DNA of 64,000 nucleotides, taken from Burkholderia ambifaria (GTDB taxonomy: Bacteria > Pseudomonadota > Gammaproteobacteria > Burkholderiales > Burkholderiaceae). A program made the position numbers and the translations under genes. This document shows positions 18,400 through 42,541 of the stretch, piece after piece. Within the stretch, counting starts at the first letter, position 1, and every line of letters starts with the position of its first letter. The notes below the pieces were generated by a model, which did no database searches, had not been told where the DNA came from, and saw nothing but the letters and a program-made list of their open reading frames with translations. Where the stretch lies: NCBI RefSeq assembly GCF_001443045.1, contig NZ_LKPJ01000003.1:287935-351934 (forward strand). The letters are read 5' to 3'.

Positions 18400-20715
18400 C
18401 TAGCTCGTGCCTGATACATCTTTCAAGCGGACGCCCTTGTAAAACACGTAATGTCGCTCTTCCACTCGCGTATAGACAGCCGCGAGTTTCGCTCCAAATT
18501 CGCGAGAACCTAGCTTTTCATAGCCGGGATTTGCCGCGACCCAAGCAAAGTAGTCGTCTAGGAGCGACTTGTGCTGCGATCGCACATCGTCTGCCATAGT
18601 GCGTTCCTCGCGCCACACCTCAAAACTGTCCGCCCGCACACGCTGCTCACTGCCTGCCCGGCGCACTTTGTCTGGCGGCTGCAAGCCGTTCTCAAGATAG
18701 TCGCGCAACCCCACCAGCAGCAGATTGAGGATTCCCGGTAACTGATGCAGCAGCGTCTCCTTCAGATCCGGATCGATTTCATTCTCCGAAAATGTTCGTG
18801 TGAACGGCACGACCGTGATGCGACGCCACAGCGCGGCATCGTCCGCGTTGATCCCCGGCATCTCGTTTGCGATCATGACCAGCGTAAATACGGGCATGAA
18901 CTCGACATCCTCGACATAAAGCGTCCGCGCCGCCACCCGATCCCCGCCCGTCAACTGCTTGACCAGCCCCCCGTTGAGCTTGTGCTTCTTGGTCGGTTCG
19001 TTCACGGTTACAAACCGCTTTCTTTCCAGTTTCACAATCGATGGCGTTGGTCCATCATTCATCGTGCCTTGCACCATGAGCGCTGCGACACCAAGAGTGC
19101 TGGCTAGGCTTCCGAAGATTGCATTCAGCACCTCGACCGTGACAGATTTCCCGTTGCGTCCCGCGCCAAGGAAAATCACAAAAAGATGCTCTTTCGGCTT
19201 ACCCAGCAGCATGCGCCCGCACAAACGCAGGAAGAATCCGATCAGATTGCGGTCGCACTCGAATATCTCGTCAAGAAACGACTCAAACCTCGGGGCACGC
19301 GCTTCAGGGTCAAAAATAACCGCGCTGTTGTTAGGCGCGATCGGTTTGAAGCGGGCCGGAACAAGCTCCCCGCTTAGCAGATTTAGCACACCGTTGGCGA
19401 CGGGAAAGTAGGGATAGTCCGTCGCCTGCAATGCGTCGGACGCCTCAAGCATGAACTCGAGCGCAGCACGACCCAGCAAATCAAGCGATCGGCCATCTCC
19501 TGAATGTTTCGAAACGGCAGTCACCACCGCTAGGTTGCTATCGGTGCCGTGCGCCTTCTGGATCAAGCGATGACAATATGATTCGACAATCGTCCTGAAC
19601 GCAAACGGATCCAGCGCTTCGTAGTGGTCCCCGACCCATCGCAACGCTTGCAGCGTCTGTTTTTCACCGTGCCCCCTGCGCACGACAGTGATATCCGGGT
19701 ACATCTTGCTAGCCAGTAAGCGGCCAAGGTAACGCTCGCCCATCACTTCCTTGGGACCCACTGCCACGCGCCTCCGAAAGCCAGGGTTTGACCAGCCACG
19801 CTCCGCTGCCAGGAAGAAAATCGAATTCGGCGACGCCGACGATCCCGCATCGAAGGAATTCCACGCGACCTGCATGCGCTGCTCATCATAATTGCTTGCC
19901 CGACGCGACCACTCGTCCACCAGCTTGAAGCCGTCGAAGCCAAGGGGAGATGCGGCACCCAGCACCTTGATCCATGTGTCAAACGGCACCGGATCGATGT
20001 ACTGCAAGGCTTCGCGCAGGTCCGCGAGGCGCTGGTGCTTGTCGTCATCGGTCACGACCTTCACGCCCAGTGAGCGCGCCACAGGAATTCGCGCCTGCAG
20101 TGACGCGGCGATCAGATCAACGTCGAACGCAGCGGCCAGTCCGGCAACGTCATACAAACGCTCCGGCTCACACCGCAACAGCTTGACCTCGGTTCCATGT
20201 TTGCGATTGATGAAGCCCGGCAAGCGTATCGCCTGCGTCACATTCGCAAAGCAAACGTCGCCCCCGAAACGGTGCGCGAGCGCGACAGCCATCCTGTTGA
20301 ACGTGTCGTTGGCAACCGGCTGCTTAAAAATCCAGATCACGTGCTGGCGACCACCCGAAGTATTCACCACAATCGACGGCCCAAACAACGATCTCTGCCA
20401 GCGTGAAGGATCCACATCGTAATCAAGATCGACACCGACGGCCCACGAGCCCGTCACGCTACTTTTGGCGAAACCCTCACCATTGGTCATTCCGACAAGC
20501 ATGAATGCTTCCCAGCCGTCGGCCTTCGACGCAGCGAAGTGCTTCTGTTGCTCCGTGAGCGTTCCCCACGTGCTCTCGACCTTGAGCACGCTCTTCCCGT
20601 CCTCGCCACGCAACATCCACTTGATCGTGAACGGCTGGTCCTCGCCATGTACCGCCCGGCATACCACCAGTGCCTCATGAAAGGACGCATCTTTGCCTAG
20701 TTCAATCTTGCTCAT
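18400..20715 (-). CDS. Island replication protein: RepB/AEP-type primase fused to an SF3 (D5-like) helicase
   Basis: A 771-residue P4-alpha-like replicase. The N-terminal region shows an archaeo-eukaryotic/RepB primase pattern: acidic DLDYD about residues 96-100, SGGRQHVIW about 120-128, and RLPGFINRK. A PriCT-2-like segment follows (YIDPVPFDTWIKVLGAASPL, then DEWSRRASNYDEQR). Next come a D5_N region and a superfamily-3 helicase with Walker A GAGRNGKS near residue 517, KRFVTVNEP, and the sensor-like LVMIANEMPGI. ATG 20715 is chosen because AGGACTAGAG precedes it; the open frame upstream has only a TTG. It lies downstream of the AlpA-type gene and next to a repeat-rich candidate origin, as in P4-type elements. 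Such proteins replicate the excised element. Confidence 0.88.
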   Translation of the reverse strand: MSKIELGKDASFHEALVVCRAVHGEDQPFTIKWMLRGEDGKSVLKVESTWGTLTEQQKHFAASKADGWEAFMLVGMTNGEGFAKSSVTGSWAVGVDLDYDVDPSRWQRSLFGPSIVVNTSGGRQHVIWIFKQPVANDTFNRMAVALAHRFGGDVCFANVTQAIRLPGFINRKHGTEVKLLRCEPERLYDVAGLAAAFDVDLIAASLQARIPVARSLGVKVVTDDDKHQRLADLREALQYIDPVPFDTWIKVLGAASPLGFDGFKLVDEWSRRASNYDEQRMQVAWNSFDAGSSASPNSIFFLAAERGWSNPGFRRRVAVGPKEVMGERYLGRLLASKMYPDITVVRRGHGEKQTLQALRWVGDHYEALDPFAFRTIVESYCHRLIQKAHGTDSNLAVVTAVSKHSGDGRSLDLLGRAALEFMLEASDALQATDYPYFPVANGVLNLLSGELVPARFKPIAPNNSAVIFDPEARAPRFESFLDEIFECDRNLIGFFLRLCGRMLLGKPKEHLFVIFLGAGRNGKSVTVEVLNAIFGSLASTLGVAALMVQGTMNDGPTPSIVKLERKRFVTVNEPTKKHKLNGGLVKQLTGGDRVAARTLYVEDVEFMPVFTLVMIANEMPGINADDAALWRRITVVPFTRTFSENEIDPDLKETLLHQLPGILNLLLVGLRDYLENGLQPPDKVRRAGSEQRVRADSFEVWREERTMADDVRSQHKSLLDDYFAWVAANPGYEKLGSREFGAKLAAVYTRVEERHYVFYKGVRLKDVSGTS

Positions 20716-20733
20716 CTCTAGTCCTAGTTGATA

Positions 20734-20896
20734 GGCGTGAGCGATGTGAACATCACTGCTGTTACTTTTTTTTTTGCTTTTCAAAACTCGAAAACAATAA
20801 AAAAGTGACTCACATCGCTCACGCCGAAGTCATGATTTTTTTGCTGGGAAAGAGGCGCGCGGCCGCCACTCCAGCAAACGGGAGTGATGTGAGTGA
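20734..20896. other. Candidate island replication origin or operator region
   Basis: A perfect 16-bp inverted repeat, GGCGTGAGCGATGTGA (20734-20749) and TCACATCGCTCACGCC (20810-20825), flanks a 60-base A/T-rich core with long T and A runs (20765-20804). A further related copy, GTGATGTGAGTGA, is at 20884-20896, and GTGA-ACA-TCAC at 20746-20756. The layout of iterons around an A/T-rich core beside the primase gene suits an origin. An AlpA operator is the other possibility. Confidence 0.5.
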
Positions 20897-20897
20897 T

Positions 20898-21101
20898 TTA
20901 CTGGGCTTCGCTCTCCTTGATGCGATCCTGAATCCAGGCTTGTACTTGGACCTCGGAAAAGAGAGTCTTCCGACCACACTTGATGATGCGCGGGAAGGTC
21001 GGATCGGAAGTGATCCGCTCGTACACGGCAGAACGGCTGAGACAAACCTGTCGGCAAAGCTCGATCAGGTCAATGAGACGATCGATGGTCATGGATGCCA
21101 T
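20898..21101 (-). CDS. AlpA-family excisionase/transcriptional regulator
   Basis: A 67-residue MerR-like/AlpA winged-helix protein (CRQVCLSRSAVYERITSDPTF, then PRIIKCGRKTLFSEVQVQAW). In P4-like elements AlpA activates integrase expression or assists excision. Start ATG 21101 (MASMTIDRLID); ATG 21092 is an alternative. It is upstream of the primase and reads towards the candidate origin. I infer that it sets the excision or replication state of the island. Confidence 0.82.
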   Translation of the reverse strand: MASMTIDRLIDLIELCRQVCLSRSAVYERITSDPTFPRIIKCGRKTLFSEVQVQAWIQDRIKESEAQ

Positions 21102-21433
21102 CCTCAACTTCAAGCAGTTATGTCTTGAATGTCGAAGACGAGGGAAGACGGTCATACGAGATGCCAACCGTCCGGCCTTTAGGAAGGCCCACCAGCGTAA
21201 AGACAAATCGGCTGGTTACCCGGTGCAGTGGGTGCGCTGCGCGTCCTCTACGGTCGTGTTCGCCGAGTGGGAAAACAACCCGCCGGTGATCTCGCGACTA
21301 GCTCAGTCAAACTCTCGCACGAAAGGCTAGTGGGTCACCAACTGCTTCTCGTCCTATGTAACCGGCTGGAAGTGTTGCCAGTATGCACGAAAATCCACGC
21401 GGACACCACGTTGTTCCACCGTTGTACCAAGCC
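21102..21433. other. Intergenic stretch between alpA and the GTPase gene
   Basis: About 330 bases between divergent genes. No gene is supported. It should contain the promoter of alpA-primase on the minus strand. The plus-strand promoter candidate is listed separately. Confidence 0.35.
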
Positions 21434-21462
21434 TTGACGATGTCTGATTTATAAGAGATACT
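21434..21462 (+). promoter_or_regulatory. Candidate sigma-70 promoter for the GTPase-nuclease cassette
   Basis: TTGACG (21434-21439), a 17-base spacer, and GATACT (21457-21462). It lies 38 bases before the start codon of the GTPase-like gene. The surrounding sequence is more A/T-rich than the genes on either side. Confidence 0.45.
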
Positions 21463-21499
21463 TCGCACCGGAACACCCCAGGAACAACGGAGACGAGCC

Positions 21500-23740
21500 A
21501 TGCCGGATACCTTCTATACAGCGAGCCTTAGCCGGACACAGGGCCGGAGCACTTGGGCTATCATTTTCCGGCATCCGAAGCGCACCGACCCGACGACTGG
21601 GAAGACGGGGCTTCGGGTGAGGCAGAGCCTGAAGACTGAGGATGAACAGGAGGCGGCAAAGCTCCGGGACGATATGAATGCCCTGCTTTCCAGCCCGCAC
21701 CTCTGGGACCTCGGAGCGCGCGAGCAGGCGGCCGCCACGCTCGACCCCCGCGTGATTGACGTCTTCTACTATAAGCTCGAAGGCGGCGAGACCGATTTCC
21801 TCGGCTTGCGTGAGACGACTATCGCTTTACCCTCAGCGCAATCGAGCGAATATCGCCGGGCACTTCTGCTCGGCACCACCGGAGCCGGAAAGACGACGCT
21901 GCTGCGTCAAATCATCGGCACCGATCCGACGCGCGAGCGCTTCCCCTCCACTTCCACAGCGAAAACTACTGTTCACGAGACGGAGATCGTCCTAAGCGAA
22001 GGGGCGTTCCGGGCTGTGGTGACATTCTTCCCGATGGAGGACGTTCGCGAACATCTGAAGGAATGCGCGTCAGCGGCAGTCCTCGCCGCCTACCGCGGTG
22101 AGTCCGACGGCGAGCAAATGCGCCGCCTTCTGACCCACGTGAACCAGCGCTTCCGCTTCAACTATGTGCTAGGCAACGGGCTGGTGAAGGAGGTCAGTGA
22201 CTTCGATGACGAACCCGAGGCTGAAGGAACTTCAGACAGCGGAGAGTTGCTCAAGCAGACGAACGCGGTTCTGGCACAGACGCTCGTTGCGCTCAAAGAT
22301 ATCGCGGTCCGGCATGGCGACGAACTGCGACAGGAGCTGAACGCGACAGAGGAGAAAGACCAACGTGTTATCGACGAGCTGTTCGAGGAGGAGTTGGACA
22401 ATCGGACCCGCGACGACGAGGCCTTTCAGCAAGTTGTGGACGCACTGATAGATGAGATCGAGGAGCGCTTCGCGCTGCTCGCCGAGGGAAAGCTTCAGAA
22501 GACCAAGGTCGGCTGGCCATTGAGCTGGACTTGGGAAACAGAAGACCGTGACGCCTTCATCCGCACACTGGCTCGCTTTTCCTCCAACTACGCACCACTC
22601 TTCGGCACGCTGCTAACACCGCTGGTCAACGGCGTTCGTGTCGCCGGACCATTTAAGCCGACGTGGAGCAACGACGTGCCTAAGCTCGTGCTGCTCGACG
22701 GCGAAGGTCTTGGCCACACGCCGCGCTCTATGTCCACGATTTCGACGTCGCTCGCGAAGCGCATCGAGATTGCCGACGCTGTGATCCTCGTCGACAACGC
22801 GACCCAACCGATGTTGGCCGCGCCGGTGTCGGCAATGAAAGAGCTGGTGTCTTCGGGCGCCGCGCCCAAGCTGATCTTCGCCTTCACGCACTTCGATCGG
22901 GTTGAGGGCGACAATCTACCGACTCCCGCAGCGCGGGTACATCACGTCCTCGCCTCCGCAGAGAACGTGCTCGCCTCTATCGGCGAGGATCTCGGGCCGT
23001 TTGCAGAGCGCGCGCTGCGAGCTCGACTGACAAGCGCGCGAGTATTCCTTTCCAGCATCGACGCAAAACTCGATGGTGTGACCACCGACGGACAGCGAAC
23101 TATCAAGCAGATCGACAAACTGCTGGAAATGGTGGACGGCATCGTGGCGCGGCCGAGACCAGCCGACTCGCGTCCCGTCTATGACCGTATGAACCTCGCC
23201 CTCGCGGTAGAACGTGCCGCCGAGATGTTCCGAAACGCTTGGCGGCCCCGGCTCGGCCTGACCGTCAAACAGGGGGTCGAGAAAGAACACTGGACGCGGG
23301 TCAAAGCGCTTAGCCGTCGCCTCGCGACTGGCATCGGGGATGAGTACGACAACTTGAGGCCGGTGGCAGATTTGAAGCTGCAACTCCAGCAGCGCCTCTA
23401 TGTCCTCCTTCAAAACCCCGACTCCTGGTCGGGGCCGGTGCCGAGTGACGATGATAAGCAGCATCTTTACGATGCGATCGCAGAAGAACTAAGCCGCAAG
23501 CTGGTCGAGCTTGCCTCCCGACGCGTCCGCACCGAACGCCAGTCGGAGTGGCGTACCGCGTTCGACGAATCTGGACCGCGCTCGACCTTCCGGCGCGCCG
23601 AGCTAATAGCCGGGCAAATCTACGATCGCGCCGCGCCGATCCCCGACATTGCTGCCTCGCCGGATCGTAACGCGTTCATGCAGGAGGTTGCTGAATCAAC
23701 ACGCGAGGCCGCCGAAGCCGTCGGCGCAAAGCTCCTATAA
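21500..23740 (+). CDS. Large P-loop GTPase-like protein, putative defence component
   Basis: A 746-residue protein of no family I can name. Residues 1-65 (WAIIFRHPKRTDPTTGKTG and then RVRQSL.TEDE) resemble the arm-type DNA-binding fold at the start of tyrosine integrases. A Walker A, GTTGAGKTT, is at 125-133. TSTAKTT at 151-157 could be switch I. LLDGEGLG at 398-405 fits a DxxG (G3) motif after a hydrophobic strand. IFAFTHFD at 459-466 stands where NKxD (G4) is expected, with THFD in its place. About 240 residues, many charged and coiled-coil-like (about 245-335), separate the P-loop from G3, far more than in a small GTPase. Asp in THFD favours guanine binding, but this is inference. It has an upstream GGAG ribosome-binding site. 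A nuclease gene follows 158 bases downstream. Confidence 0.7.
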   Translation: MPDTFYTASLSRTQGRSTWAIIFRHPKRTDPTTGKTGLRVRQSLKTEDEQEAAKLRDDMNALLSSPHLWDLGAREQAAATLDPRVIDVFYYKLEGGETDFLGLRETTIALPSAQSSEYRRALLLGTTGAGKTTLLRQIIGTDPTRERFPSTSTAKTTVHETEIVLSEGAFRAVVTFFPMEDVREHLKECASAAVLAAYRGESDGEQMRRLLTHVNQRFRFNYVLGNGLVKEVSDFDDEPEAEGTSDSGELLKQTNAVLAQTLVALKDIAVRHGDELRQELNATEEKDQRVIDELFEEELDNRTRDDEAFQQVVDALIDEIEERFALLAEGKLQKTKVGWPLSWTWETEDRDAFIRTLARFSSNYAPLFGTLLTPLVNGVRVAGPFKPTWSNDVPKLVLLDGEGLGHTPRSMSTISTSLAKRIEIADAVILVDNATQPMLAAPVSAMKELVSSGAAPKLIFAFTHFDRVEGDNLPTPAARVHHVLASAENVLASIGEDLGPFAERALRARLTSARVFLSSIDAKLDGVTTDGQRTIKQIDKLLEMVDGIVARPRPADSRPVYDRMNLALAVERAAEMFRNAWRPRLGLTVKQGVEKEHWTRVKALSRRLATGIGDEYDNLRPVADLKLQLQQRLYVLLQNPDSWSGPVPSDDDKQHLYDAIAEELSRKLVELASRRVRTERQSEWRTAFDESGPRSTFRRAELIAGQIYDRAAPIPDIAASPDRNAFMQEVAESTREAAEAVGAKLL

Positions 23741-23898
23741 ACGCGAGAGGCGGCATCACCGCGGCGAAGCGGCTGCTTGCAGAGTCCCGCCGTCGTTTCT
23801 AACACTGCAGCGCTACAAAGCTCACAGTTAAGCGCGTCTCGGTCCGCCCATGGTGGGCAGCGTACGCGCCAAAATTCGCGCACTCACGAGAGGAGCCC

Positions 23899-25473
23899 AT
23901 GGACGAACGCGTCGCACGAGTTAAGACATCGCAGGAAGCCCGCCAACTTGCGGAAAATGCACGGGAGAGGGGACGGCCAGACTTGGCGGCCCAAGCGCTG
24001 GAGCGCGCTAGAGAACTCAAGGCCATCGAGGAAGGTTACACAAGCCCGGCGCAACAAGCTATCGCCACGGCGCTCTATGCTTACGAAGAAGAGCAGAGCC
24101 GGCTTAAGGGGCGCCCTTTCCGCGCAAATCGTACTCACCAGATGCTAGTCAAGCACGGAGCGCTGGGCGCGGCGGAACGCATGGTGCTGCACCGACAACC
24201 CTCCAAGGGCTACGAGGTACTTGACGGGGCCGGGCTGCGAGAGCTGAGTTTTGAAGCCATCATCGACCGCTTTCCTGACGAGTTCTCCGCCGTCGCCGTG
24301 GAAGCCGCACGCGCACGACTAAATGGCGAGCCCCTGCCCCGCTCGTTGCTAATCGCCTCATCGTCAAACAACTCCGAGGATGAGTCGAACGACGATATCC
24401 TCGTGCCGGCCGTGCCGGATGGAGAGGCGCTGACCTTTCTGAATGGCTTCCGCAACCCTGACAACTGGTTCTTGGCAAGCTGGCTACCGCGCTACCGCGA
24501 GGTAGTTCTGACCATCGCACGATCCCTGTCCGATGACCGCCCGCAAGATCTGTTCGACATCTTTTGGAAACGCGCCGACAACTCCATCGCCCACGCCGGG
24601 CAAGGCATGCTGAGACACGACATAGTGGATGGAATGCGCGAGGAATTAGTCCAAGTCATTCGCGACATTCACGAGGATGGCAGCCCCGCGAACTTCAAAC
24701 GTATCGTGGAACGCTTTGAAGGCTGGAAGACCGAGAGTCGCATTAGTATGGTGCCACGTCTGCTGATCGCGCGCGCCTTCGCCGGCATACATCCGGACCG
24801 GTACCACACCACAGTGGATGCAAGCAGCCAGAACCAAGCGCTTAGATGGTTCGTCGAGCATACGGGCTTCGTCATGCCGAGCTCCACCGATTGGGCAACG
24901 CGGGCGCAAGTTCTGACGACCCACTTGGACCAAGCCAATATATTCGACGGCGATACCTTGGCCCGCAATATCTTCCCTTGGTTCGTCGTGGATCAGTTGC
25001 GCGGCCGCACTGCGCCCAGCAGCGTTCCACCCGGACACTCGCCGCGCCCAAACACCGCTTTTGCAGACCTCCCGCCGGCTCAGCGCACTATCGCGCTGCG
25101 ACACAACACCATTCAGACGATCTTGTTTGCTCAGTTGACTGCGCAATATGGCGAGGATCGAGTCTGGACCGAATACCCCACTGGAACCGGTGGCTATGCC
25201 GACGCCATCGCCCGGCAACCGGATGGTCGGTGTCATCTATACGAAATCAAGATTGCAGACACCGCCGCCGAGGTAGTGCGACAAGCCATGGGGCAATTGT
25301 TGGAATACGGCTTCCGAGCGGGCGGCTTGGAGCCAGCGAAACTGTATGCGGTCGGAGAACCGGTACTGGACGACGTCACCCGGCGCTTCGTGACACGACT
25401 GCGCGACGACTTCAAGCTGGACATTGACTACTTACAGGTCGTACTGCCTGGCGAGCCAGAAGCCTCACCGTAA
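23899..25473 (+). CDS. PD-(D/E)XK nuclease-domain protein, partner of the GTPase-like protein
   Basis: A 524-residue protein. Residues 1-100 are a helical region (ENARERGRPDLAAQALERAR; AYEEEQSRLKGR; NRTHQMLVKHGALGAAERMV) like the N-termini of some HNH and modification-dependent restriction proteins. The middle (about 190-370; FVEHTGFVMPSSTDW, ARNIFPWFVVDQLRG) resembles accessory regions beside McrB-type enzymes. The C-terminus has a PD-(D/E)XK core: E425 (VWTEYP), D435 (YADAIA), E449 and K451 (YEIKIA), and Q462 with the helix AMGQLLEYGF. GAGAGGAGCCC precedes the ATG. I infer that it cleaves DNA under control of the neighbouring GTPase-like protein, as McrC does with McrB, though the two proteins are not recognisable McrBC. 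Confidence 0.72.
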   Translation: MDERVARVKTSQEARQLAENARERGRPDLAAQALERARELKAIEEGYTSPAQQAIATALYAYEEEQSRLKGRPFRANRTHQMLVKHGALGAAERMVLHRQPSKGYEVLDGAGLRELSFEAIIDRFPDEFSAVAVEAARARLNGEPLPRSLLIASSSNNSEDESNDDILVPAVPDGEALTFLNGFRNPDNWFLASWLPRYREVVLTIARSLSDDRPQDLFDIFWKRADNSIAHAGQGMLRHDIVDGMREELVQVIRDIHEDGSPANFKRIVERFEGWKTESRISMVPRLLIARAFAGIHPDRYHTTVDASSQNQALRWFVEHTGFVMPSSTDWATRAQVLTTHLDQANIFDGDTLARNIFPWFVVDQLRGRTAPSSVPPGHSPRPNTAFADLPPAQRTIALRHNTIQTILFAQLTAQYGEDRVWTEYPTGTGGYADAIARQPDGRCHLYEIKIADTAAEVVRQAMGQLLEYGFRAGGLEPAKLYAVGEPVLDDVTRRFVTRLRDDFKLDIDYLQVVLPGEPEASP

Positions 25474-25818: not shown

Positions 25819-26013
25819 ATGAATGTAAATCTGACCCCCAATCTCGAAGCAATGGTGAAAGCCAAGGTCGCTAGCGGCCTCTACAACAACGCCAGCGAAG
25901 TTGTCCGGGAGGCGCTGAGGTTGATGGCTGCCCGTGACCAACGGAACCTCCCGCCGAATATCGATGCGAGTAGCGGCACGGTCCATGCCCCGAGCGATCC
26001 CGGCTCCGACTGA
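25819..26013 (+). CDS. ParD/CopG-type ribbon-helix-helix protein, no toxin partner
   Basis: A 64-residue protein. It opens with the RHH strand and helices of ParD antitoxins (MNVNLTPNLEAMVKAKVASG, then YNNASEVVREALRLMAAR) and ends in a Pro/Ser/Asp-rich tail (residues 45-64). In a ParDE pair a ParE toxin gene would follow at once or overlap. Instead, 98 bases without a ParE-like frame separate it from the SNF2 helicase gene. RHH proteins of this kind repress their own operon. I infer that it regulates the downstream restriction operon, in the manner of a restriction-modification control protein, or that it is the remains of a toxin-antitoxin pair. Confidence 0.75.
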   Translation: MNVNLTPNLEAMVKAKVASGLYNNASEVVREALRLMAARDQRNLPPNIDASSGTVHAPSDPGSD

Positions 26014-26111
26014 CGGCCCCCCACCTCGAATACGCCATACATGGCCCAGGTTCGGGCTTGGGTCTGCTCGGAGCATCGGGTATAACGGCATCCAAAATAG
26101 CTTTCCACACA

Positions 26112-28958
26112 ATGACAACCGCATCGAGCCCATCGGCATTCACCCCACATCAAAGTAGCTTTTTTGCGCACCGCCTCACACTTGACGGCATTGGCGACGA
26201 TGCGATCACACAATCGCTCTCTACCGCGCGCGTCGATATGAACCCGCATCAGGTTGATGCGGCTCTCTTCGCGTTATCGTCGCCGCTGTCAAAAGGCGTC
26301 GTACTTGCCGACGAAGTGGGCCTTGGCAAGACGATAGAAGCTAGCCTAGTGATTGCCCAGCGGTGGGCTGAGCGGCGGCGAAAAATCCTTTTGATCGTGC
26401 CCGCCTCCTTGCGGAAGCAATGGAGTCAGGAGCTATCCGATAAATTCTCACTGCCGTCAACGATCATCGAAAGCAAGAGTTATAACCTTGCGAAAAAGAA
26501 CGGTAACGCGCGCCCCTTCGATCTGCCCGATACAGTCCTGATCACCTCTTACGAGTTTGCGGCAACAAAGGCGGAAGACGTTGCGCGTGTTCAATGGGAC
26601 CTCGTCGTCTATGACGAAGCGCACCGGCTTCGCAACGTCTACAAGCAAGGGACCGGACTGCGCGCCAAACGCCTCCGCGAGGCAACCGCGCCATACTTTA
26701 AGATCCTACTCACGGCAACGCCGCTCCAAAATTCCCTGATGGAACTGTTTGGCCTCGTCTCCGTGATCGATGAGCATTTCTTCGGAGACGAGAAGAGCTT
26801 TCGCGCGTCCTACGTGGGAGCCAGTTCATCAAACAACGCGTTCCTATTCCTGCGCAAGCGTCTTGAAGCGGTGTGCAAACGAACGCTGCGTCGCCAAGTG
26901 CAGCAGGCTGGTTTGATCAAGTACACGGCGCGATGCCCGCTGACGCTCTCTTTCGAACCCTCGGACGACGAGGCGCGTCTCTACGAGGGCGTATCGGCAT
27001 ACCTTCAACGTCCCGGCACAATCGCATTTGGAGACCGGCCCAATGCGCTTGTTACGCTCGTAGTCCGGAAGATCCTCGGTTCCTCCACGTTTGCACTCTC
27101 CGAAACACTTGCCAAGATCATCGAACGGTTGCGTGACAAACAGCGCCCATCCATTGAAGCGCTCGTCGACTACGATGCAATCGACAATACGGTTGAAGAA
27201 TTCGACGACGAAGAAAGCGGGGACGACGAAATCGATCCGGCCAAGCTCGCCGCCGAAATCGCAGAGTTGGAGGAATTTCGTGCTCTTGCGCTCTCAATCG
27301 GCGAGAATGCCAAAGGCGGCATGCTCGTCAATTCGCTTCCTGCTGCGCTGGACACAATCGAATCCAAGAAAGGGCTTCGCAAGGCCGTCATCTTCACAGA
27401 ATCGGTCCGCACGCAACGCTATCTCGCTGACCTTCTGACGGCAAACGGCTACGGTGATCAAATCGCCCTGCTCAACGGTCAAAACAATGATCCAGCCAGC
27501 GCGGCCATTTACCGCGACTGGCTGGCCCGTCACAAGGATTCGGACGCGATTTCGGGATCGAAGACAGCTGATATGAAGGCGGCAATTGTCGAGGCATTCC
27601 GCGACGACAAGTCGATCCTCATTGCAACTGAGTCGGGGGCCGAAGGTATCAACCTGCAGTTCTGCTCGCTTCTCATCAACTTCGATCTGCCATGGAATCC
27701 GCAGCGCGTGGAACAACGTATCGGGCGCTGCCACAGATATGGGCAGAAGATCGATGTCACCGTCGTCAACTTCCTGAATCTGAAGAATCGTGCCGAGCAG
27801 CGCGTTTTCGATTTGCTCGATAAGAAATTCCGGCTGTTCGATGGCGTATTCGGCGCTAGCGACGAGGTTCTTGGCGCAATCGAGCGCGGAGTCGATATCG
27901 AGCGCCGCATCTTGGAAATCGTGCAGGCGGCACGCAATGAAGAAGAGATCAATACTGCATTCGACCAACTGCAGTCTGACCTGCAGGCGCAGATCAGCGA
28001 ACAGGTGCTCGACGCCCGTAAACGGCTCCTCGAAAACGTCGATGAGAAAGTGACGCGTCAACTGAAAACGCGCAATGGCGAGATCCAGAAGCATCTTTCT
28101 GATTTTGATCGCGATCTCTTACGTATTGCGCGTGCCGAGTTGCCCGAAGCAGATTTCCATACTGATGATGAGCGTCGGTTCAATTATCGCGGACATACTT
28201 ACACTACAGAGTGGCCCATTGCAGACGAGCGCGGCTGGCAATTCTTCCGTTTGACGGAAGGCACCCTTGCGCAGCAAGTGATCGCCGACGCGAAAAAGCG
28301 CGAGTTCAACGAGATCAGCCACGTTCGCTTTGATCTATCGGCATACCCGGGCGTCCTTGCAGATGTGAATCCGCTACGCAGCCGAAGCGGATGGCTGCGT
28401 GTCGCCAAGCTTCGGGTGAACACCGCCGCACTCAATCGCGAATATCTGGTTCTGTCGGTTACAGCCGACGACGGCGAAGCGCCGCATCCCGAAACGATCG
28501 AACGGCTCCTGTCGGTTCCGGCGCGGGTCACCGGCGCAGCTGCCGATGCGCCGCCGCTTACTGACCTCGACGGAATCGAGGCCTCGCGCAAAGGTGATCT
28601 TCTTGCGCTGGCGGAGGAGCAAAACAATGCCTGGCTCGAGGAAGAAAGCGAGAAACTTGACGCCTATGCAGAAGACCTCGAACGAGCATTCGAGACTGAC
28701 GTGAAGGCTATGGATATGGAAATCAAGGCTGCCAAAAAAGCCCTACGAGGCTCCAATCTGGCAATGAGCGAAAAGCTCGCGGAAAAGCGCCGTATCAGCG
28801 CGCAGGAAGGAAAACGGGACAAAATGAAAGCTGCATTTTTTGATCGTAAGGCGGAAATTCGCGCGGAAGTGGAATCACTGCTCGACAAGATTCAGGAGAA
28901 TCTGAAGGTTTCTCCTCAGTTGACCCCACTGTTCACGATCCGGTGGGAGGTCGCATGA
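26112..28958 (+). CDS. SNF2-family DNA helicase/translocase of a restriction-modification operon
   Basis: A 948-residue SNF2/RapA-like ATPase. The N-terminal Q/HQ motif is VDMNPHQVDAALFAL. Motif I is DEVGLGKT (67-74), motif II is DEAH (168-171), and motif III is LLTATPLQN. The C-terminal helicase domain has ATESGAEGINLQFCSLLINFD (quoted as ATESGAEGINLQF and LLINFDLPWNPQRVEQRIGR) and motif VI QRIGRCHRYGQ. The last 300 residues are charged and coiled-coil-rich (EEQNNAWLEEESEKLDAYAE). ATG 26112 is chosen as the first one near the SNF2 N-terminus. The stop overlaps the methyltransferase start (ATGA), with GGGAGG placed for the next gene. Similar helicases accompany methyltransferases in several phage-defence loci. 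Here it probably tracks or remodels DNA for the Mod/Res pair. Confidence 0.88.
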   Translation: MTTASSPSAFTPHQSSFFAHRLTLDGIGDDAITQSLSTARVDMNPHQVDAALFALSSPLSKGVVLADEVGLGKTIEASLVIAQRWAERRRKILLIVPASLRKQWSQELSDKFSLPSTIIESKSYNLAKKNGNARPFDLPDTVLITSYEFAATKAEDVARVQWDLVVYDEAHRLRNVYKQGTGLRAKRLREATAPYFKILLTATPLQNSLMELFGLVSVIDEHFFGDEKSFRASYVGASSSNNAFLFLRKRLEAVCKRTLRRQVQQAGLIKYTARCPLTLSFEPSDDEARLYEGVSAYLQRPGTIAFGDRPNALVTLVVRKILGSSTFALSETLAKIIERLRDKQRPSIEALVDYDAIDNTVEEFDDEESGDDEIDPAKLAAEIAELEEFRALALSIGENAKGGMLVNSLPAALDTIESKKGLRKAVIFTESVRTQRYLADLLTANGYGDQIALLNGQNNDPASAAIYRDWLARHKDSDAISGSKTADMKAAIVEAFRDDKSILIATESGAEGINLQFCSLLINFDLPWNPQRVEQRIGRCHRYGQKIDVTVVNFLNLKNRAEQRVFDLLDKKFRLFDGVFGASDEVLGAIERGVDIERRILEIVQAARNEEEINTAFDQLQSDLQAQISEQVLDARKRLLENVDEKVTRQLKTRNGEIQKHLSDFDRDLLRIARAELPEADFHTDDERRFNYRGHTYTTEWPIADERGWQFFRLTEGTLAQQVIADAKKREFNEISHVRFDLSAYPGVLADVNPLRSRSGWLRVAKLRVNTAALNREYLVLSVTADDGEAPHPETIERLLSVPARVTGAAADAPPLTDLDGIEASRKGDLLALAEEQNNAWLEEESEKLDAYAEDLERAFETDVKAMDMEIKAAKKALRGSNLAMSEKLAEKRRISAQEGKRDKMKAAFFDRKAEIRAEVESLLDKIQENLKVSPQLTPLFTIRWEVA

Positions 28959-30625
28959 ATAGCAAAAACAAACTCGAACTTAATTGGATCGGGAAAGATC
29001 AGCGCACCCATCTTGAACCACGCATTTTAATTGAGGACGCCGACAAGTCCTATCACGCAGGGCAGCGAATAAATTCCGATGACATTTTTGACAATCGCCT
29101 GATTTTTGGTGACAACCTTCTAGCATTGAAGGCGCTTGAATCGGAGTTCACGGGTCGCATCAAATGCGTCTTTATTGACCCCCCGTACAACACTGGCAGC
29201 GCATTTGAGCATTATGACGACGGCGTAGAACACTCGATCTGGCTTACGTTGATTCGAGATCGACTCGAGATTATTCGTCGCCTGCTCGCTCCGGATGGCT
29301 CGCTTTGGATTGCTATTGACGACAATGAAGGACACTACTTGAAAGTTCTCTGTGACGAGATTTTCGGTCGTGCGGCCTTTGTTTCTTCCATGGTTTGGGA
29401 GAATTTTTACGGACGCAGCAATGCCGCCGCAATCTCACCAGCGCATAACTACATTCTCCTTTACTCGCCCATGGGTCAAGATTGGAAGAAGGTGCGCAAC
29501 CTGCTACCAAGAGGCGAGGAGAGCGCGAGCAAGTACAAAAATCTGGACAATGACCCACGTGGTCCATGGCGGCTCGGACCGATCTTTGCCGCTGGCGAAC
29601 GTCATGAAGGATTGATGTATACGATTAGCACGCCGTCCGGAAGGAAAGTCAGTCCGCCCAAGGGAAGCCATTGGAGAATGCTGGAAGATCAGTTCTGGAA
29701 GATGGTCGACGAGGGCCGCATCGTCTTCGGCGAGAAAGGCGATAATAATCCAGCCGTAAAACTATTTCTTTCTGAAGTGCAGAGCGGCCTAGTACCACGT
29801 ACGTGGTGGCCTCATGCCGAAGTCGGCCATTCGCAGGAGGCGAAGAGGGAGATACAGGCCTTATTTCCAACTGAAATACCATTTGACACGCCAAAACCCG
29901 AACGGCTCCTGTGCCAGATTTTGACCATCGCAACGAATCCGGGGGATATCGTTCTAGATTCGTTTGCCGGCTCAGGTACGACCGGCGCAGTGGCGCACAA
30001 GATGGGGCGTAAGTGGATCATGATCGAATTGGGACCTCATTGTGACACGTACGTCGCGCCCCGAATGAGGAAGATCATTGATGGCGAAGATGAAGGAGGT
30101 GTCACGAACCTCGTCGGCTGGAAAGGCGGCGGCGGATTTAGATATTTTCGGCTAGCGCCGTCACTGCTAGAAAAGGATAAGTGGGGTAATTGGGTAATTC
30201 AAGCTGACTACAATTCAGCAATGCTGGCAGAGGCTGTTTGCAAGTTAATGGGCTTCACTTATTCGCCAAGCGAGCAACATTATTGGATGCATGGCTATTC
30301 GTCTGAACGAGACTTCGTCTACGTCACCACGCAAAGTTTGACGCATGATCAGTTGCGCGCATTGTCAGAAGACGTCGGCGACGAACGGAGTTTGCTTGTT
30401 TGCTGCAAGGCGTTTCATGCAAAATCCGACATATTTTCAAACTTGACGATCAGAAAAATACCGCTGGCCGTACTTCGCAAGTGTGAATGGGGAAAGGATG
30501 ATTACAGCTTAACCGTTCAGAATTTGCCGGAAGCAAAGGCGGAGCCGAGTGATGCTCAATCAGCGCCTGCTCCCGATAGCCGGTTGCCAAAAGCACAAGC
30601 AGACCTGTTTGCGGAAAAGGAATAA
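28955..30625 (+). CDS. Type III restriction-modification N6-adenine DNA methyltransferase (Mod)
   Basis: A 556-residue beta-class amino-methyltransferase. The catalytic motif IV DPPYNTG at 75-81 comes before the SAM-binding motif I region FAGSGTTGA near 334-342, the order usual for type III Mod subunits. RLIFGDNLLALKALES precedes the catalytic motif, and the region between the motifs holds the target-recognition part. It should methylate adenine in one strand of an asymmetric site and provide specificity for Res. The gene overlaps the helicase gene (ATGA) and lies 8 bases before the res start. It is visibly richer in A/T at third codon positions than the core genes, which supports foreign origin. 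Confidence 0.92.
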   Translation: MNSKNKLELNWIGKDQRTHLEPRILIEDADKSYHAGQRINSDDIFDNRLIFGDNLLALKALESEFTGRIKCVFIDPPYNTGSAFEHYDDGVEHSIWLTLIRDRLEIIRRLLAPDGSLWIAIDDNEGHYLKVLCDEIFGRAAFVSSMVWENFYGRSNAAAISPAHNYILLYSPMGQDWKKVRNLLPRGEESASKYKNLDNDPRGPWRLGPIFAAGERHEGLMYTISTPSGRKVSPPKGSHWRMLEDQFWKMVDEGRIVFGEKGDNNPAVKLFLSEVQSGLVPRTWWPHAEVGHSQEAKREIQALFPTEIPFDTPKPERLLCQILTIATNPGDIVLDSFAGSGTTGAVAHKMGRKWIMIELGPHCDTYVAPRMRKIIDGEDEGGVTNLVGWKGGGGFRYFRLAPSLLEKDKWGNWVIQADYNSAMLAEAVCKLMGFTYSPSEQHYWMHGYSSERDFVYVTTQSLTHDQLRALSEDVGDERSLLVCCKAFHAKSDIFSNLTIRKIPLAVLRKCEWGKDDYSLTVQNLPEAKAEPSDAQSAPAPDSRLPKAQADLFAEKE

Positions 30626-30633
30626 TTCGAACA

Positions 30634-33360
30634 ATGAATCGTGAACTGCACAGCGTTACTCAGAGACTGTCGCTGCGGAAACCCCAGGCAGACTCCCTTG
30701 AAATCCTTGCGGATGTCCTTGGGCGCATCTCGCTAAGAACGGATATCGATAACGGTCAGGCCCTCGCCGCGATCAAGGAAAAATGGTCTTCGTTCGAAGA
30801 TTTTGAGCGTGAATTCCCATCGCTTTGCTTCGCGCTCGCAACCGGTGTCGGCAAGACACGCCTAATGGGTGCATTCATTGCCTACCTTTACCTCACGGGT
30901 CGCAGCCGTCATTTCTTCGTTCTTGCGCCGAATACGACGATCTATAACAAGCTGATCAACGATTTCACGCCCGGTCATCCGAAATATGTGTTCAAGGGGA
31001 TCGCTGAGTTTGCGACGAATCCACCGCTGATCATTACTGGTGATAACTACGAAAGCGGTCGCGGCGTCCGACTTCCCGATGGTCGTGCATCCGATTTGTT
31101 TGGCAGCGACGTGCACATCAACATCTTCAATATTGACAAGATCAATAAGGAAGAGGGGCCGCGCGGCACTCCGAAGATGAAGAAATTGCAGGAGACCATC
31201 GGCGAGAGTTACTACGACTATCTCTCCGGGCTCGATGATCTGGTGGTCGTTATGGACGAAGCGCACCGCTATCGCGCCAGCGCGGGCTCGAAGGCTATCG
31301 ATGGCCTCAAACCGATTCTCGGTCTTGAGCTAACCGCGACGCCTAAAACCGTCGGGGCTCGCTCCGCCGCCTTTCGCAACGTCATCTACAGATACGGTCT
31401 TGGTGAGGCAATGGCGGACGGCTTCGTTAAAGAACCTGCCGTTGCGACGCGGAAGGATTTCGATCCGAAGTCCGTCGCGGAAGAACGGCTTGAACAGATC
31501 AAGCTGGAAGATGCCGTTCACAACCACGATCATGTCGCCGTGGAACTGGATCGTTATCATCGCGTGACCGGACGCCCGAAGGTACATCCGTTCATTCTTG
31601 TCGTCGCGCAAGACACGGATCACGCCCGCCGCCTGCGCACATACATCGAGTCTGAAGACTTCTTCCGGGGACGGTTCAAGGACAAGGTGGCCGAAGTCCA
31701 TTCCGCATTGCGCGGCGAAGAGAGTGAAGAAGCGACCCAGCGCCTCGTTTCGCTGGAACAGGATGGGCGCACCGAAATCGTCATTCACGTCAACAAGCTG
31801 AAGGAAGGCTGGGACGTTACCAATCTCTACACGATTGTTCCGCTCCGCGCCTCCGCTTCGGACATCCTGACGGAGCAGACGCTTGGTCGCGGCCTTCGCC
31901 TGCCATACGGTGAGCGCGTGACGCATAGCGACGACGAAGACTTCGCTGCGGTGGACCGCCTCACTGTAATCGCCCATGACCGTTTCGACGAGATCATTCA
32001 AAAAGCGCGCGAGCCCGGCTCGATTGTCATGAAGCATATTGAGATCGGCGAGGGATGCGACGTTTCCTCAGACGGCGCAACTCTCGTAACCGCTCCGTCG
32101 ATTGCCGAAATCATGATCACGGGTTCCAGCCCTTCCCTGCCGGGACTAGATGAGCCACCCACCGTTCCGGTGATCACCCTACAGACGCCGGAGGAAACGC
32201 GGACCGCAGAGGTCACGCTTGAGGTCATCCGGAAATTCGAAAGAAAGCTCGGCAGCGCCGATGAACTACGTTCGGCGGACGTGCAGCGCCAGATTGCTGA
32301 CGCAGTTCGAGAGATTGTCCGCCCGGCGCAAAGTACGCTGGAGGGCATCATTCCAGCTCCGCGCGTTGAGGAGATCGTAGCGGCCGTCACGCAGACGGTC
32401 GCCGAACGCACAATGTCGATTCCGCAGATCCTCGTCCTGCCGAAGCGACAAACCACGTTCGAGTTCGCCGATTTCGATCTGAAGGACCTGTCGACGATCA
32501 ATGTCCGCCCCATAGATGACGGCCTGATCATTCAGACGCTGCGAACCGAGGCGCGCACATATCTCGCGAAATCCGTTGATGACCCCCGCGAAGAACGTCT
32601 GGAAGATTACCTTGTCCGGTTCCTGATCGAGCGCAACGAGATCGACTACGACGCCCATGCGGATCTGCTCTACAAACTCGCCGGGCAAGTTGTGGATCGC
32701 ATCAACTCGTATCTAGAGACTCGAGCGGAAGTCGAGAACGTTCTCTTACGCAACGGGCGTCAGCTCGCGGAATTCATCTTCGCCCAGATGATGCAAAACT
32801 ATGTCGAAACACCGCTCGGAGTTGACGATTATGAAGTCCGCGTAACACGCGGTTTTTCCCTTCTTCAACCTCAGGCTTTCAACGTTGTGCCGGGCCAAAA
32901 GGTCCGCGATTTCCGACAAGTAGTGACTCCGATGTCCGACACGAAGCGGCAGGTTTTCGGCGGCTTCAAAAAATGCTGCTACTCACTCCAAAAATTCGAC
33001 TCCGATCCGGAGCGCCGCTTCGCCGTTCTTGTCGATGCCGATCCGGTCGTTGAAAAGTGGCTCAAACCCGGTCGAGCACAGTTTCAGATTGAGTATCGCT
33101 CCGGGGACAACTATGAGCCGGACTTCGTGATTGAAACTGATACCGCGATGGTGATATGCGAGGTGAAGAACCGGGACGAACTTACAGATCCCGTCGTTCT
33201 TGCCAAGGCAAAAGCTGCCGTGAAATGGTGCCGCGCCGCCACGCAGCACGCGGAGGAATCGAGGACAAAACCGTGGACTTATGTCCTCATCGGCGATGAT
33301 CAGATTATCGGTAGCGCCACCCTATCAGGGTTGATGGCGCGTTTTTCACGCAGCGTGTAG
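30634..33360 (+). CDS. Type III restriction endonuclease subunit (Res), DEAD helicase-nuclease
   Basis: A 908-residue SF2 ATPase with a C-terminal nuclease. Walker A ATGVGKT is at 69-75 and MDEAHRYRA at 207-215. LELTATP follows, then motif V/VI features (LKEGWDVTNLYTIVPLR; TEQTLGRGLRLPYG). The nuclease is of PD-(D/E)XK type: NYEPDFVIETD, then CEVKNRDE. Res translocates or diffuses along DNA after ATP hydrolysis and cuts when two sites are met. Gene order SNF2 helicase, Mod, Res with tiny gaps indicates one transcript. A strong terminator follows 5 bases after the stop codon. Confidence 0.93.
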   Translation: MNRELHSVTQRLSLRKPQADSLEILADVLGRISLRTDIDNGQALAAIKEKWSSFEDFEREFPSLCFALATGVGKTRLMGAFIAYLYLTGRSRHFFVLAPNTTIYNKLINDFTPGHPKYVFKGIAEFATNPPLIITGDNYESGRGVRLPDGRASDLFGSDVHINIFNIDKINKEEGPRGTPKMKKLQETIGESYYDYLSGLDDLVVVMDEAHRYRASAGSKAIDGLKPILGLELTATPKTVGARSAAFRNVIYRYGLGEAMADGFVKEPAVATRKDFDPKSVAEERLEQIKLEDAVHNHDHVAVELDRYHRVTGRPKVHPFILVVAQDTDHARRLRTYIESEDFFRGRFKDKVAEVHSALRGEESEEATQRLVSLEQDGRTEIVIHVNKLKEGWDVTNLYTIVPLRASASDILTEQTLGRGLRLPYGERVTHSDDEDFAAVDRLTVIAHDRFDEIIQKAREPGSIVMKHIEIGEGCDVSSDGATLVTAPSIAEIMITGSSPSLPGLDEPPTVPVITLQTPEETRTAEVTLEVIRKFERKLGSADELRSADVQRQIADAVREIVRPAQSTLEGIIPAPRVEEIVAAVTQTVAERTMSIPQILVLPKRQTTFEFADFDLKDLSTINVRPIDDGLIIQTLRTEARTYLAKSVDDPREERLEDYLVRFLIERNEIDYDAHADLLYKLAGQVVDRINSYLETRAEVENVLLRNGRQLAEFIFAQMMQNYVETPLGVDDYEVRVTRGFSLLQPQAFNVVPGQKVRDFRQVVTPMSDTKRQVFGGFKKCCYSLQKFDSDPERRFAVLVDADPVVEKWLKPGRAQFQIEYRSGDNYEPDFVIETDTAMVICEVKNRDELTDPVVLAKAKAAVKWCRAATQHAEESRTKPWTYVLIGDDQIIGSATLSGLMARFSRSV

Positions 33361-33365
33361 TTATA

Positions 33366-33390
33366 CGGACCGGTGATGCCGGTCCGTTTT
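33366..33390. terminator. Rho-independent terminator between res and the convergent GHKL gene
   Basis: CGGACCGG (33366-33373) pairs with CCGGTCCG (33379-33386) with loop TGATG, then TTTT. It lies within 30 bases that separate the stop codons of two convergent genes, so it probably acts on both. Confidence 0.85.
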
Positions 33391-35226
33391 CTATCCCTTC
33401 AAATCGAATTGAAGAACCTCCTCAAAGACCTTGTTTCTGGCCTTCGCATCCTTTATAAGCGCCGAGGCCGGCATTACGTATAGGTGCAGCGGAATTTCAT
33501 TTTTCGAACCAATCAAGAAATCGTTATATACGACTCGCTCAGTTAACGAGAAAACGTCCTTGAAGCCCGTCTGCTTCATGTCCCTATAAAATTCATAATC
33601 GATCTCAACGATCGAGAACGCAAAAACTTCTCGCACCGTTGGAATTCGATCAGCAAGCTCACTAGCATACAACCTGCACTGCATTAGTGCCTTATTGTTT
33701 TCGAAAATATCCGCACCGGGCTTTTTAAACTCGATGATGACCAGTTTGTTAGGGTGGTTTTCATTGTCTTTCGAAAAGAAAGCTGCAACATCTGGTCGTC
33801 GCTGCTGCTTTGCCTCGATGGCTTCCCCAACCTCTTGGATGATCGTAGCTAGTGCCTGTTCACTATAAATACTGGAATACGACAAAAATTTATCATCGAC
33901 CAACCAGACATTATTTTCCCGAATCTCCGATCCATCACTTCTTTTTGGGAGAATAGCGTTATGGATCGCATCTTCCGCGCTATCCGATGGCATGTTCGCT
34001 AACGAGTCAATAACCAACGCCCGATGAACGATGAACCTAGCTAAATCTTCACTCGCAAGGTGTGAAACATCATCCCAAGAGACGGGTTTCCCGCTCTCCA
34101 GAGCTTCGACCACTTGATCTTCTTTTCTGGCCTGCTGAGCCCTGTAGGTTTTTACCACCTCATCAGCATCTAGCAGAGCAGCGTTGCCATCCAGCGAATC
34201 GATTTTTATAAATGGATAGTACCTTTTGAGCTTCTCGATATTATCCGTCTTGAATTGCTCAATATCACCTTCCGCAGACTCATCAATCATTGCCAAGCAT
34301 TCTTCATGAATGCGCGGCATTAGCTTCTCACGACTGATGGGAGAAACCATGTCGACATCATTATCCGTCCTCGGAAGCTCCAATCGTTGCCGCTCAATAT
34401 TGGAGCGCTTATTAAAGTAGTCCGACGTGACAAAAATCAGATGCCTGCATACGTCGAACCTCTTACTGATAACGTATTCTTCGATGCAAAGCTCATCAGC
34501 ACATAGCATGGCGAAAATACCTTTTCTGGGAGGTTCATCCCTGAAAAGATAGCAATTAAATTTTTCACCCTGAAATTCAAACTCCCTAGTCAACTCCGCC
34601 TTGATGCTATCTCCTGAGAATATATAGACATCATCGAACGGCTGCCTTGAATTGTGAGTGAACTTTAAGGTTATGCTGTGCCCCGCCTGATGCTTGAGGA
34701 AGAGCAGAAGGTGCAGATCATCGCAAATCGAACTAATCAGCTTGGTTACCTGAGTGTTGATCCTGTCCTTCAGGTCCCGCAAGGTGATGCTGGTACTTGC
34801 AGCGCCAATCATCGGCGATTTCTTAACATCCTCAAGTTTGAAATCCGGGGTATAAGTGAACGCAACCAGCTCAGTCGGAAGCTGACTGGAAATTTCAACC
34901 TTATTAGCATATTTAAGGAATGCCAGTCGCCCGACACCTTTTCCGCCAATATCGTCTTTGTGGCTGGTACAGATTTCGTCGAAGAAGTTCAGATTTTCAG
35001 TCGTGAAGCCTTCACCATCATCAACTATGGTGATCTGCTCCAGAACCCTTCTTTCCTCACTACCCGGAGTCAACTCCTGTTGCCTCTCTGAGAAGTGGAG
35101 ATCGACGGACACGATTTTTCCGCCAGCGTGAATAGAATTCGTGACCGCCTCACGAATCACGTCACGAGCGGTAACCCCACCTCTGTAGTGCTCGGCAATA
35201 AATTTTCGAAGATTGATTCGCGCCAT
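33391..35226 (-). CDS. GHKL-type ATPase fused to a PD-(D/E)XK-like domain
   Basis: A 611-residue protein. Its N-terminal third is a Bergerat-fold ATPase: N-box REAVTNSIHAGG (residues 25-36), G1 box DDGEGF (69-74), and G2 box GGKGVGRLAF (94-103). Such folds occur in Hsp90, MutL, MORC and histidine kinases. No kinase or MutL transducer sequence is obvious. Near residues 478-500 RPDVAAFF is followed by LVIIEFKKP, a D...ExK pattern typical of PD-(D/E)XK nucleases, so the C-terminus may cut nucleic acid. It converges on the helicase-Mod-Res operon and has no partner of its own on this strand. Codon use is clearly A/T-rich. Helicase, methylase and GHKL ATPase genes are known to cluster in defence islands, and I infer such a role. 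Confidence 0.78.
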   Translation of the reverse strand: MARINLRKFIAEHYRGGVTARDVIREAVTNSIHAGGKIVSVDLHFSERQQELTPGSEERRVLEQITIVDDGEGFTTENLNFFDEICTSHKDDIGGKGVGRLAFLKYANKVEISSQLPTELVAFTYTPDFKLEDVKKSPMIGAASTSITLRDLKDRINTQVTKLISSICDDLHLLLFLKHQAGHSITLKFTHNSRQPFDDVYIFSGDSIKAELTREFEFQGEKFNCYLFRDEPPRKGIFAMLCADELCIEEYVISKRFDVCRHLIFVTSDYFNKRSNIERQRLELPRTDNDVDMVSPISREKLMPRIHEECLAMIDESAEGDIEQFKTDNIEKLKRYYPFIKIDSLDGNAALLDADEVVKTYRAQQARKEDQVVEALESGKPVSWDDVSHLASEDLARFIVHRALVIDSLANMPSDSAEDAIHNAILPKRSDGSEIRENNVWLVDDKFLSYSSIYSEQALATIIQEVGEAIEAKQQRRPDVAAFFSKDNENHPNKLVIIEFKKPGADIFENNKALMQCRLYASELADRIPTVREVFAFSIVEIDYEFYRDMKQTGFKDVFSLTERVVYNDFLIGSKNEIPLHLYVMPASALIKDAKARNKVFEEVLQFDLKG

Positions 35227-42304: not shown

Positions 42305-42310
42305 ATGTCT

Positions 42311-42364
42311 GATACCAACATTTTGAGTGTCGATACCAACCAATATACCATCACCGATACCAGC
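42311..42364 (+). repeat. Iterated GATACCAAC/GC sites beside the integrase start
   Basis: GATACCAACA at 42311-42320, GATACCAAC at 42332-42340 and GATACCAGC at 42356-42364. They stand immediately upstream of int, near the attachment site. Similar GTACCAACA sites stand near the left end. Candidate arm-type sites or int autoregulatory operators. Confidence 0.4.
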
Positions 42365-42399
42365 AATCAGTGCACGACCATGGACGCGAAAAAACAAAA

Positions 42400-42430
42400 A
42401 ACCCCGCAAAATCAACGATCTTACGGGGTT
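42400..42430 (-). terminator. Terminator for tRNA-Thr, supplied by the island
   Basis: AACCCCG (42400-42406) pairs with CGGGGTT (42424-42430). On the minus strand it is followed by TTTTTGTTTTTT. It lies 36 bases downstream of the tRNA on the island side of the attachment site. Confidence 0.8.

Positions 42431-42465: not shown

Positions 42466-42541
<76 letters not shown>

Follow-up and report, generated by a model that had tools for sequence, protein, structure and literature searches.

A candidate self-repressed dynamin-like GTPase gene carried by mobile elements, found in a genomic island of Burkholderia ambifaria

Dynamins are known mainly as membrane machines. A precedent for an anti-phage bacterial dynamin is DynA of Bacillus subtilis, which is reported to reduce phage release (PMC8844932), and GTPase-coupled nucleases such as SspE and McrBC exist in principle. 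We analysed a locus in a 64,000-nucleotide stretch of Burkholderia ambifaria DNA (contig NZ_LKPJ01000003.1, positions 287,935 to 351,934; the whole stretch is called the window), for which an earlier note had proposed a two-gene cassette consisting of a large P-loop GTPase (P0001) and a nuclease (P0002). Both open reading frames, of 746 and 524 residues, were confirmed at 21500-23740 and 23899-25473. The reading that we favour, with a probability of about 0.5, is that P0001 is a dynamin-like GTPase that binds DNA, represses its own gene, travels as cargo of mobile elements and probably acts against phages, and that its functional unit does not include P0002; autoregulation, DNA binding and the defence role are what we infer. 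No description of this GTPase family was found in literature searches. The features concerned are as follows, other loci being numbered L001 onward.

21500-23740, plus strand: P0001, dynamin-like GTPase of 746 aa with an N-terminal domain, a G domain and a helical C-terminal part (open reading frame, alignments, structure model)
21500-21709, plus strand: N-terminal domain of P0001, residues 1-70, weakly DUF6538-like (alignment, profile comparison)
21410-21428, no strand: upstream operator pair, GTTGTTCC at 21410-21417 and GTTGTACC at 21421-21428, 11 bp apart (upstream alignment)
21434-21462, plus strand: sigma-70-like promoter, TTGACG-17-GATACT, between the operator pairs (promoter scan)
21470-21488, no strand: downstream inverted operator pair, GGAACACC at 21470-21477 and GGAACAAC at 21481-21488, 11 bp apart, just 5' of the start codon (upstream alignment)
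23899-25473, plus strand: P0002, PD-(D/E)XK-type nuclease of 524 aa, a neighbour of P0001 but no conserved partner of it (residues, locus comparison)

Fold and N-terminal domain of the GTPase

P0001 is modelled as a bacterial dynamin-like GTPase with an extra N-terminal domain. The G1 (GTTGAGKTT, residues 125-133), G3 (DGEGLG, 400-405) and G4-like (THFD, 463-466) motifs recognised in the earlier note are well conserved: residues 125-132, D400, G401, G403 and T463-H464-F465-D466 are invariant in alignments of 21 and 28 homologs, which overlap in membership, and across the homologs the motifs read GTTGAGKT, a G2-type conserved RFPSTSTxKTT, DGxGLGH and THFD, the last being a G4 motif with H replacing K. 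The very large insert, which lies between G1 and G3, is genuine and consists mostly of helices in the structure model, in which the G domain spans approximately residues 112-552. The suggestion of a dynamin-like rather than an AAA+ fold also held, as all 19 chains found by Foldseek with this model at E<=0.001 belong to the dynamin superfamily. The best structural rows align the G domain and following helices over 212-362 residues at about 11-15% identity; helices 529-740 are modelled after the G domain, and the alignment with BDLP extends to residue 744, at 6.7 A. By hydropathy, none of 28 homologs has a membrane-like segment, all their 19-residue windows staying at or below 1.42, although this criterion does not reach amphipathic binding. 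P0001 looks like a soluble protein.

P0001 and P0002 stay below the cut-off of every Pfam and NCBIfam model, their matches in PADLOC and PHROGs are short and P-loop-type or very weak, and neither has a match at E<=1 in a phmmer search of the PDB. P0001 has zero matches among 50,697 phage records, and a class-wide search for the GTPase gave two of 369 genomes, one being the window's own and the other showing a 215-residue partial match. P0001 is assigned to a known superfamily, but its architecture and its probable regulation are new.

In the structure model, residues 1-65 of P0001 form three strands and one helix. Seven of 16 GTPase members match the DUF6538 profile (best E 0.0078), P0001 itself scoring 14.7 bits versus a cut-off of 27, and hhalign comparison of the N-terminal domain with eight DUF6538 domains gave 43% and a score of 24.2, with a maximum of 16.4 among 100 column shuffles. 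Arm-DNA-bind_3 did no better than shuffles in hhalign, and a structural search with the N-terminal domain returned nothing above noise. A pattern written for the tyrosine-recombinase signature matched none of the eight DUF6538 proteins; among the four whose C-termini were read, three have a similar recombinase arrangement and the fourth is cut short. The profile, hhalign and structure comparisons are no more than suggestive of an integrase-type DNA-binding domain. The domain is missing from all four Rhodococcus homologs examined, and GTPases of this Rhodococcus type were not found in viral contigs.

Operator boxes and a proposed mechanism

Boxes were sought, with one mismatch allowed in each, upstream of 36 GTPase genes: that of the window, those of L001-L012, eight on plasmids and 15 on viral contigs. 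Unexpectedly, in 28 of these loci, representing 25 distinct upstream sequences, two tandem GTTGTTCC boxes of 8 bp are followed, 57-73 bp on, by two tandem inverted GGAACAAC boxes just before the start codon; among 18,000 Markov resamples, both pairs appeared in none and either pair in eight. Within each of the 28 loci the two pairs have equal spacing, which is 11 bp for 15 loci and 10 bp for the other 13, and every locus has TTGAC or TTAAC as a -35 element between its pairs. The remaining spacer has diverged (mean best identity 40% over 28 pairs of eight representatives; shuffled control 37%, maximum 53%), and the boxes are kept in homologs down to approximately 38% identity. There is no box at all in the four Rhodococcus homologs, i.e., those without the N-terminal domain; the other loci without both pairs are L021 (no box; another gene lies 42 bp upstream), L023 (a single degenerate box), and L024 and L039 (three each). 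In the 10-bp loci that were inspected, alignment with the 11-bp loci shows a shared gap of one residue in the N-terminal domain, a difference that follows clade lines and is possibly a single event. The promoter that the earlier note assigned to the locus stands in part: the site at 21434-21462 exists and lies between conserved operator pairs, but taken alone it is at chance level (2 found, 1.1 +/- 1.0 expected). We infer sequence-specific DNA binding by the N-terminal domain from its linkage with these operators.

When the exact pattern GTTGTTCC-2/3-GTTGTTCC-35/60-GGAACAAC was searched in 398 genomes of the phylum, it occurred in one, directly 5' of a previously unseen 754-aa GTPase homolog (L114) that is 37% identical to P0001 over 760 aligned positions and whose divergent neighbour is the DISARM gene drmD; a reversed-pattern control gave no match among the genomes listed. 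Because the window's own copy, with two one-mismatch boxes, escapes the exact pattern, this search measures specificity and not frequency. The operator is a practical search handle, considering that the sole matching genome yielded a new family member.

In viral contigs, the exact pattern was present in 14 stretches, three of which are GTPase loci already in the set. In nine of the 11 others, a tyrosine integrase gene lies 50-56 bp from the boxes; in one it is approximately 2.9 kb away, and one (L108) has no match to that integrase. The nine integrase-adjacent cases comprise two integrase lineages that are 27-28% identical, with the boxes at the gene end in seven and at the gene start in two. 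Arrays of GTTGTTCC boxes beside tyrosine integrases were seen in viral contigs L097, L099, L101-L103, L105, L107, L109, and L110, and might be integrase arm-type sites or int operators. The arm sites of lambda integrase are similarly spaced tandem sites and were the model that we had in mind for the box pairs. The same boxes beside integrases would fit an integrase-type origin of the GTPase N-terminal domain or, on a rival view, binding by the integrase.

We propose that the N-terminal domain, probably of the integrase arm-binding type, would bind the boxes cooperatively, their distance of 10 or 11 bp corresponding to one helical turn, and that the GTPase on the boxes would loop or cover its own promoter and thereby repress it. 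The dynamin-like body could assemble on DNA in a GTP-dependent manner, and this assembly could be the switch that releases repression. The same assembly is the effector act that we prefer; during infection, it would cover or disrupt the DNA that invades, or the replication of that DNA. A replaceable downstream gene may assist the GTPase in several genomes, a partner nuclease being optional. The complete scheme, i.e., a DNA-directed dynamin with an acquired integrase-type arm-binding domain, arm-site arrays, promoter self-repression by looping or filament, GTP-driven assembly that blocks invading DNA, and optional replaceable nuclease partners, is offered as a tentative possibility, well short of even odds. 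If true, it would extend the dynamin superfamily from membrane to DNA.

The neighbouring nuclease gene and the island

P0002 lies 158 bp from P0001 on the same strand. The nuclease residues noticed earlier (E425, D435, E449, K451, and Q466) are invariant in all six aligned sequences. PDDEXK_9 of Pfam matches two of the six nuclease sequences (best 8.6e-6, on a fragment), the scores on whole proteins being 15.3 and 23 bits (8.1e-5 for the latter) versus a cut-off of 25.5, and P0002 itself has no match; a PDB search with the nuclease alignment placed engineered proteins first at 0.002, with a Cas4 row at 0.39. The assignment of P0002 as a PD-(D/E)XK-type nuclease is supported by these residues.

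All 112 other loci were searched with both proteins. The 36 other GTPase loci consist of 13 on genome contigs (L001-L013, 75-89% identical, L013 being a remnant), eight plasmid regions chosen from 11 matching records (without H5, H6, and H8), and 15 on viral contigs. None of the 36 has a P0002 relative, and 29 of them hold at least 1,700 bases downstream, i.e., room for a whole nuclease gene (those with less are L006, L007, L020, L037, L042, L046, and L047); L114 likewise has none. In the other direction, nine loci match P0002 (L016, L017, L019, L029, L030, L032, L033, L034, and L072), and a GTPase match is missing from all of them; L016, L017, and L019 are short stretches, and L016 and L017 repeat L029 and L030. 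The two-gene cassette put forward in the earlier note is rejected on these neighbourhood counts, and its nucleotide-gated nuclease loses its main support because homologues of the two genes were never found together within the loci searched, an outcome that the note itself had given as a refutation. On our favoured reading, the GTPase gene works as a unit with its own promoter and operators, P0002 being a separate gene of the island. With this, a tempting call of a two-gene "defence system" is corrected, for which the neighbourhood data give no support.

P0002 matches occur in five of 300 genomes of the order, including the window's own, with just one other strong match, and none was found in viral contigs. 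The gene of its closest relative, which is 46-47% identical over residues 171-516, belongs to an hsdM-hsdS operon, where it shares 4 bp with hsdS. In L029 (8953-12526), hsdM, hsdS, and a P0002-like nuclease gene overlap head to tail. An hsdR gene was not seen in the listed frames, as though the nuclease took the place of the restriction subunit.

The P4-type island beside restriction genes, as described earlier, was recognised again from the following features.

18400-20784, minus strand: island primase with RepB_primase, PriCT_2, and D5_N, context (Pfam)
20898-21206, minus strand: AlpA-like regulator, context (Pfam)
41078-42415, minus strand: P4-type integrase beside tRNA-Thr, at the right end of the island (family matches, tRNA location)
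42466-42541, minus strand: tRNA-Thr adjoining the P4-type integrase

A 14-mer search of the window gave no second copy of the tRNA end. Downstream of P0002, genes for a DrmD-like helicase, a type III-like methyltransferase, and a type III-like restriction subunit stand in a row, within a region (26106-35226) that ends with a convergent gene for a 611-aa HATPase protein (33391-35226) whose C-terminal part is HSDR_N-like, below the cut-off. Between P0002 and the DrmD-like gene lies a ParD-like antitoxin remnant (25819-26013, Pfam E 1.7e-6); none of the frames listed there was recognised as a toxin gene.

Alternative explanations and known systems

The alternative that survives best is a modular system, in which the GTPase would be a constant sensor or platform and the downstream effector, often a nuclease, would be swapped, P0002 being the current one here. 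In the five full-length close relatives (L001-L005), a gene for a 487-490 aa SEC-C protein overlaps the GTPase stop codon by 4 bp, and such a gene also lies 3' of the GTPase remnant in L013; SduA of Shedu follows the GTPase in L006 (5e-139) and L010 (1e-159), a 263-282 aa gene stands directly 3' of it in L009 and L010, and a GIY-YIG-like gene does so in L039 (E 0.0049, below the cut-off). Read by eye, the SEC-C and 263-282 aa proteins appear nuclease-like. In Agrobacterium S7/73, a 598-aa gene with no family match begins 12 bp 3' of the GTPase, and a CBASS-type phospholipase and cyclase pair is near the GTPase in Caballeronia. However, many GTPases have no same-strand partner; Shedu is a stand-alone system; 139 plasmid records carry SEC-C relatives, and no GTPase match turned up in the five of these regions that were retrieved (L065-L069); and some neighbours may reflect gene shuffling in islands. 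Considering that the downstream genes are so varied, partners would be replaceable or incidental, and the modular explanation is possible though doubtful. Ninety of those plasmid records are typed conjugative (e.g., E. coli pECSIC9, L068). A genome search for SEC-C (393 of 399 genomes) was not used as a count because nearly all listed matches are to the short SEC-C motif, and the 282-aa partner gene was not found on plasmids. A divergent gene for a 614-aa HipA_C protein adjoins the GTPase upstream in L006, L007, L011, and L012 (Pfam E 8e-42 in L006).

An accessory role other than defence, e.g., in the maintenance of mobile elements, in competition among them, or in the fitness of lysogens, would also agree with the presence of GTPase loci on plasmids, phage-derived contigs, and islands, and enrichment of defence genes around plasmid GTPases was not demonstrated: by product names counted by hand, five of eight regions (L020 and L024-L027) have them versus three of eight same-plasmid controls (L089, L092, and L095). 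Against this explanation stands the position of the GTPase gene in phage-derived contigs, where it can lie alone, on the opposite strand, between structural genes. In ten viral-contig loci (L040-L049, several of which are near-identical and hence not independent), the next gene 3' of the GTPase is on the opposite strand and comes from a phage structural module, a small same-strand frame intervening in L041; an upstream tail gene on that same opposite strand is present in L040, L042, L044, L045, and L048, and the upstream frames picked in the remaining five overlap one another. Flanking families include the phrog_290 tail protein (L048 and L044), the tail terminator phrog_4204 (L048), phrog_6367 (L048 and L044), and a weak head-closure match (L049), and in L037 a head and protease protein lies upstream on the same strand. 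The GTPase can be a lone gene in such contigs, and its mobile-element distribution points to defence of the host or lysogen. In addition, seven of nine hand-chosen neighbour proteins match defence families (DrmD beside L114, HsdR in L036, methyltransferases in L037 and L020, two CBASS proteins in L024, and AbiD in L027), so that DISARM, CBASS, Abi, and restriction genes are close by in several chosen cases; those chosen in L035 and L001 (one each) have no defence-family match. We regard a role outside defence as doubtful.

It is also conceivable that a different protein, be it a host regulator or an integrase of a phage or of the island, binds the boxes and that the GTPase is no DNA binder. 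The occurrence of the same boxes beside tyrosine integrases in viral contigs that have no GTPase, as well as the failure of the N-terminal domain to find a structural match, would be in line with this, but the boxes accompany the GTPase across phage-derived contigs, plasmids, and islands, they are missing where the N-terminal domain is missing, and the only further box pair in the window, at 44826, is away from the integrase. We consider a different binder unlikely. A membrane-acting dynamin similar to DynA, which would stabilise membranes and delay lysis with an incidental N-terminal domain, appears improbable: the fold relatives of P0001 are membrane-remodelling dynamins, and DynA slows phage release in a manner that requires GTP binding and hydrolysis (PMC8844932), but no paddle-like segment is apparent by hydropathy, a criterion that leaves amphipathic binding possible, and the linkage of operator and N-terminal domain points to DNA. 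Very improbable is a GTPase-gated nuclease with McrBC-like logic, in which P0001 would sense and license P0002 to cut foreign DNA, as the adjacency of the two genes, the intact nuclease residues, and the SspE and McrBC precedents are opposed by the neighbourhood counts, by GTPases standing alone in phage-derived contigs, by the hsdS overlap of the closest P0002 relative, and by the different gene that overlaps five close GTPase relatives.

Compared with described systems, the locus resembles McrBC in that a nucleotide-binding protein gene stands beside a PD-(D/E)XK nuclease gene in the window, but McrB is an AAA+ protein whereas P0001 has a dynamin-like fold, and the two genes are not kept together; membership in McrBC is rejected on fold (a dynamin-type G domain with G3 and G4 motifs) and on pairing. 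Shedu is represented by the SduA genes that follow two GTPase relatives (L006 and L010), but P0002 has no SduA match, and neither P0001 nor P0002 is a Shedu gene. With DUF6538 and tyrosine integrase N-terminal domains, the front domain of P0001 shares the hhalign likeness and the tandem boxes of the same sequence found beside phage integrases; unlike in tyrosine integrases, it is fused to a GTPase with no recombinase domain, and its sites flank a promoter. DynA belongs to the dynamin superfamily as P0001 does, but is membrane-associated and two-headed, whereas P0001 is single-headed with no recognisable membrane segment. SynDLP, the Campylobacter DLP pair, BDLP, IniA, and mitofusin/Fzo1 have in common with P0001 the predicted G domain with following helices and the G1-G4 motifs, and P0001 differs from all of them in that no hydrophobic membrane segment was found and in its added N-terminal domain, its conserved operators, and its carriage as mobile cargo.

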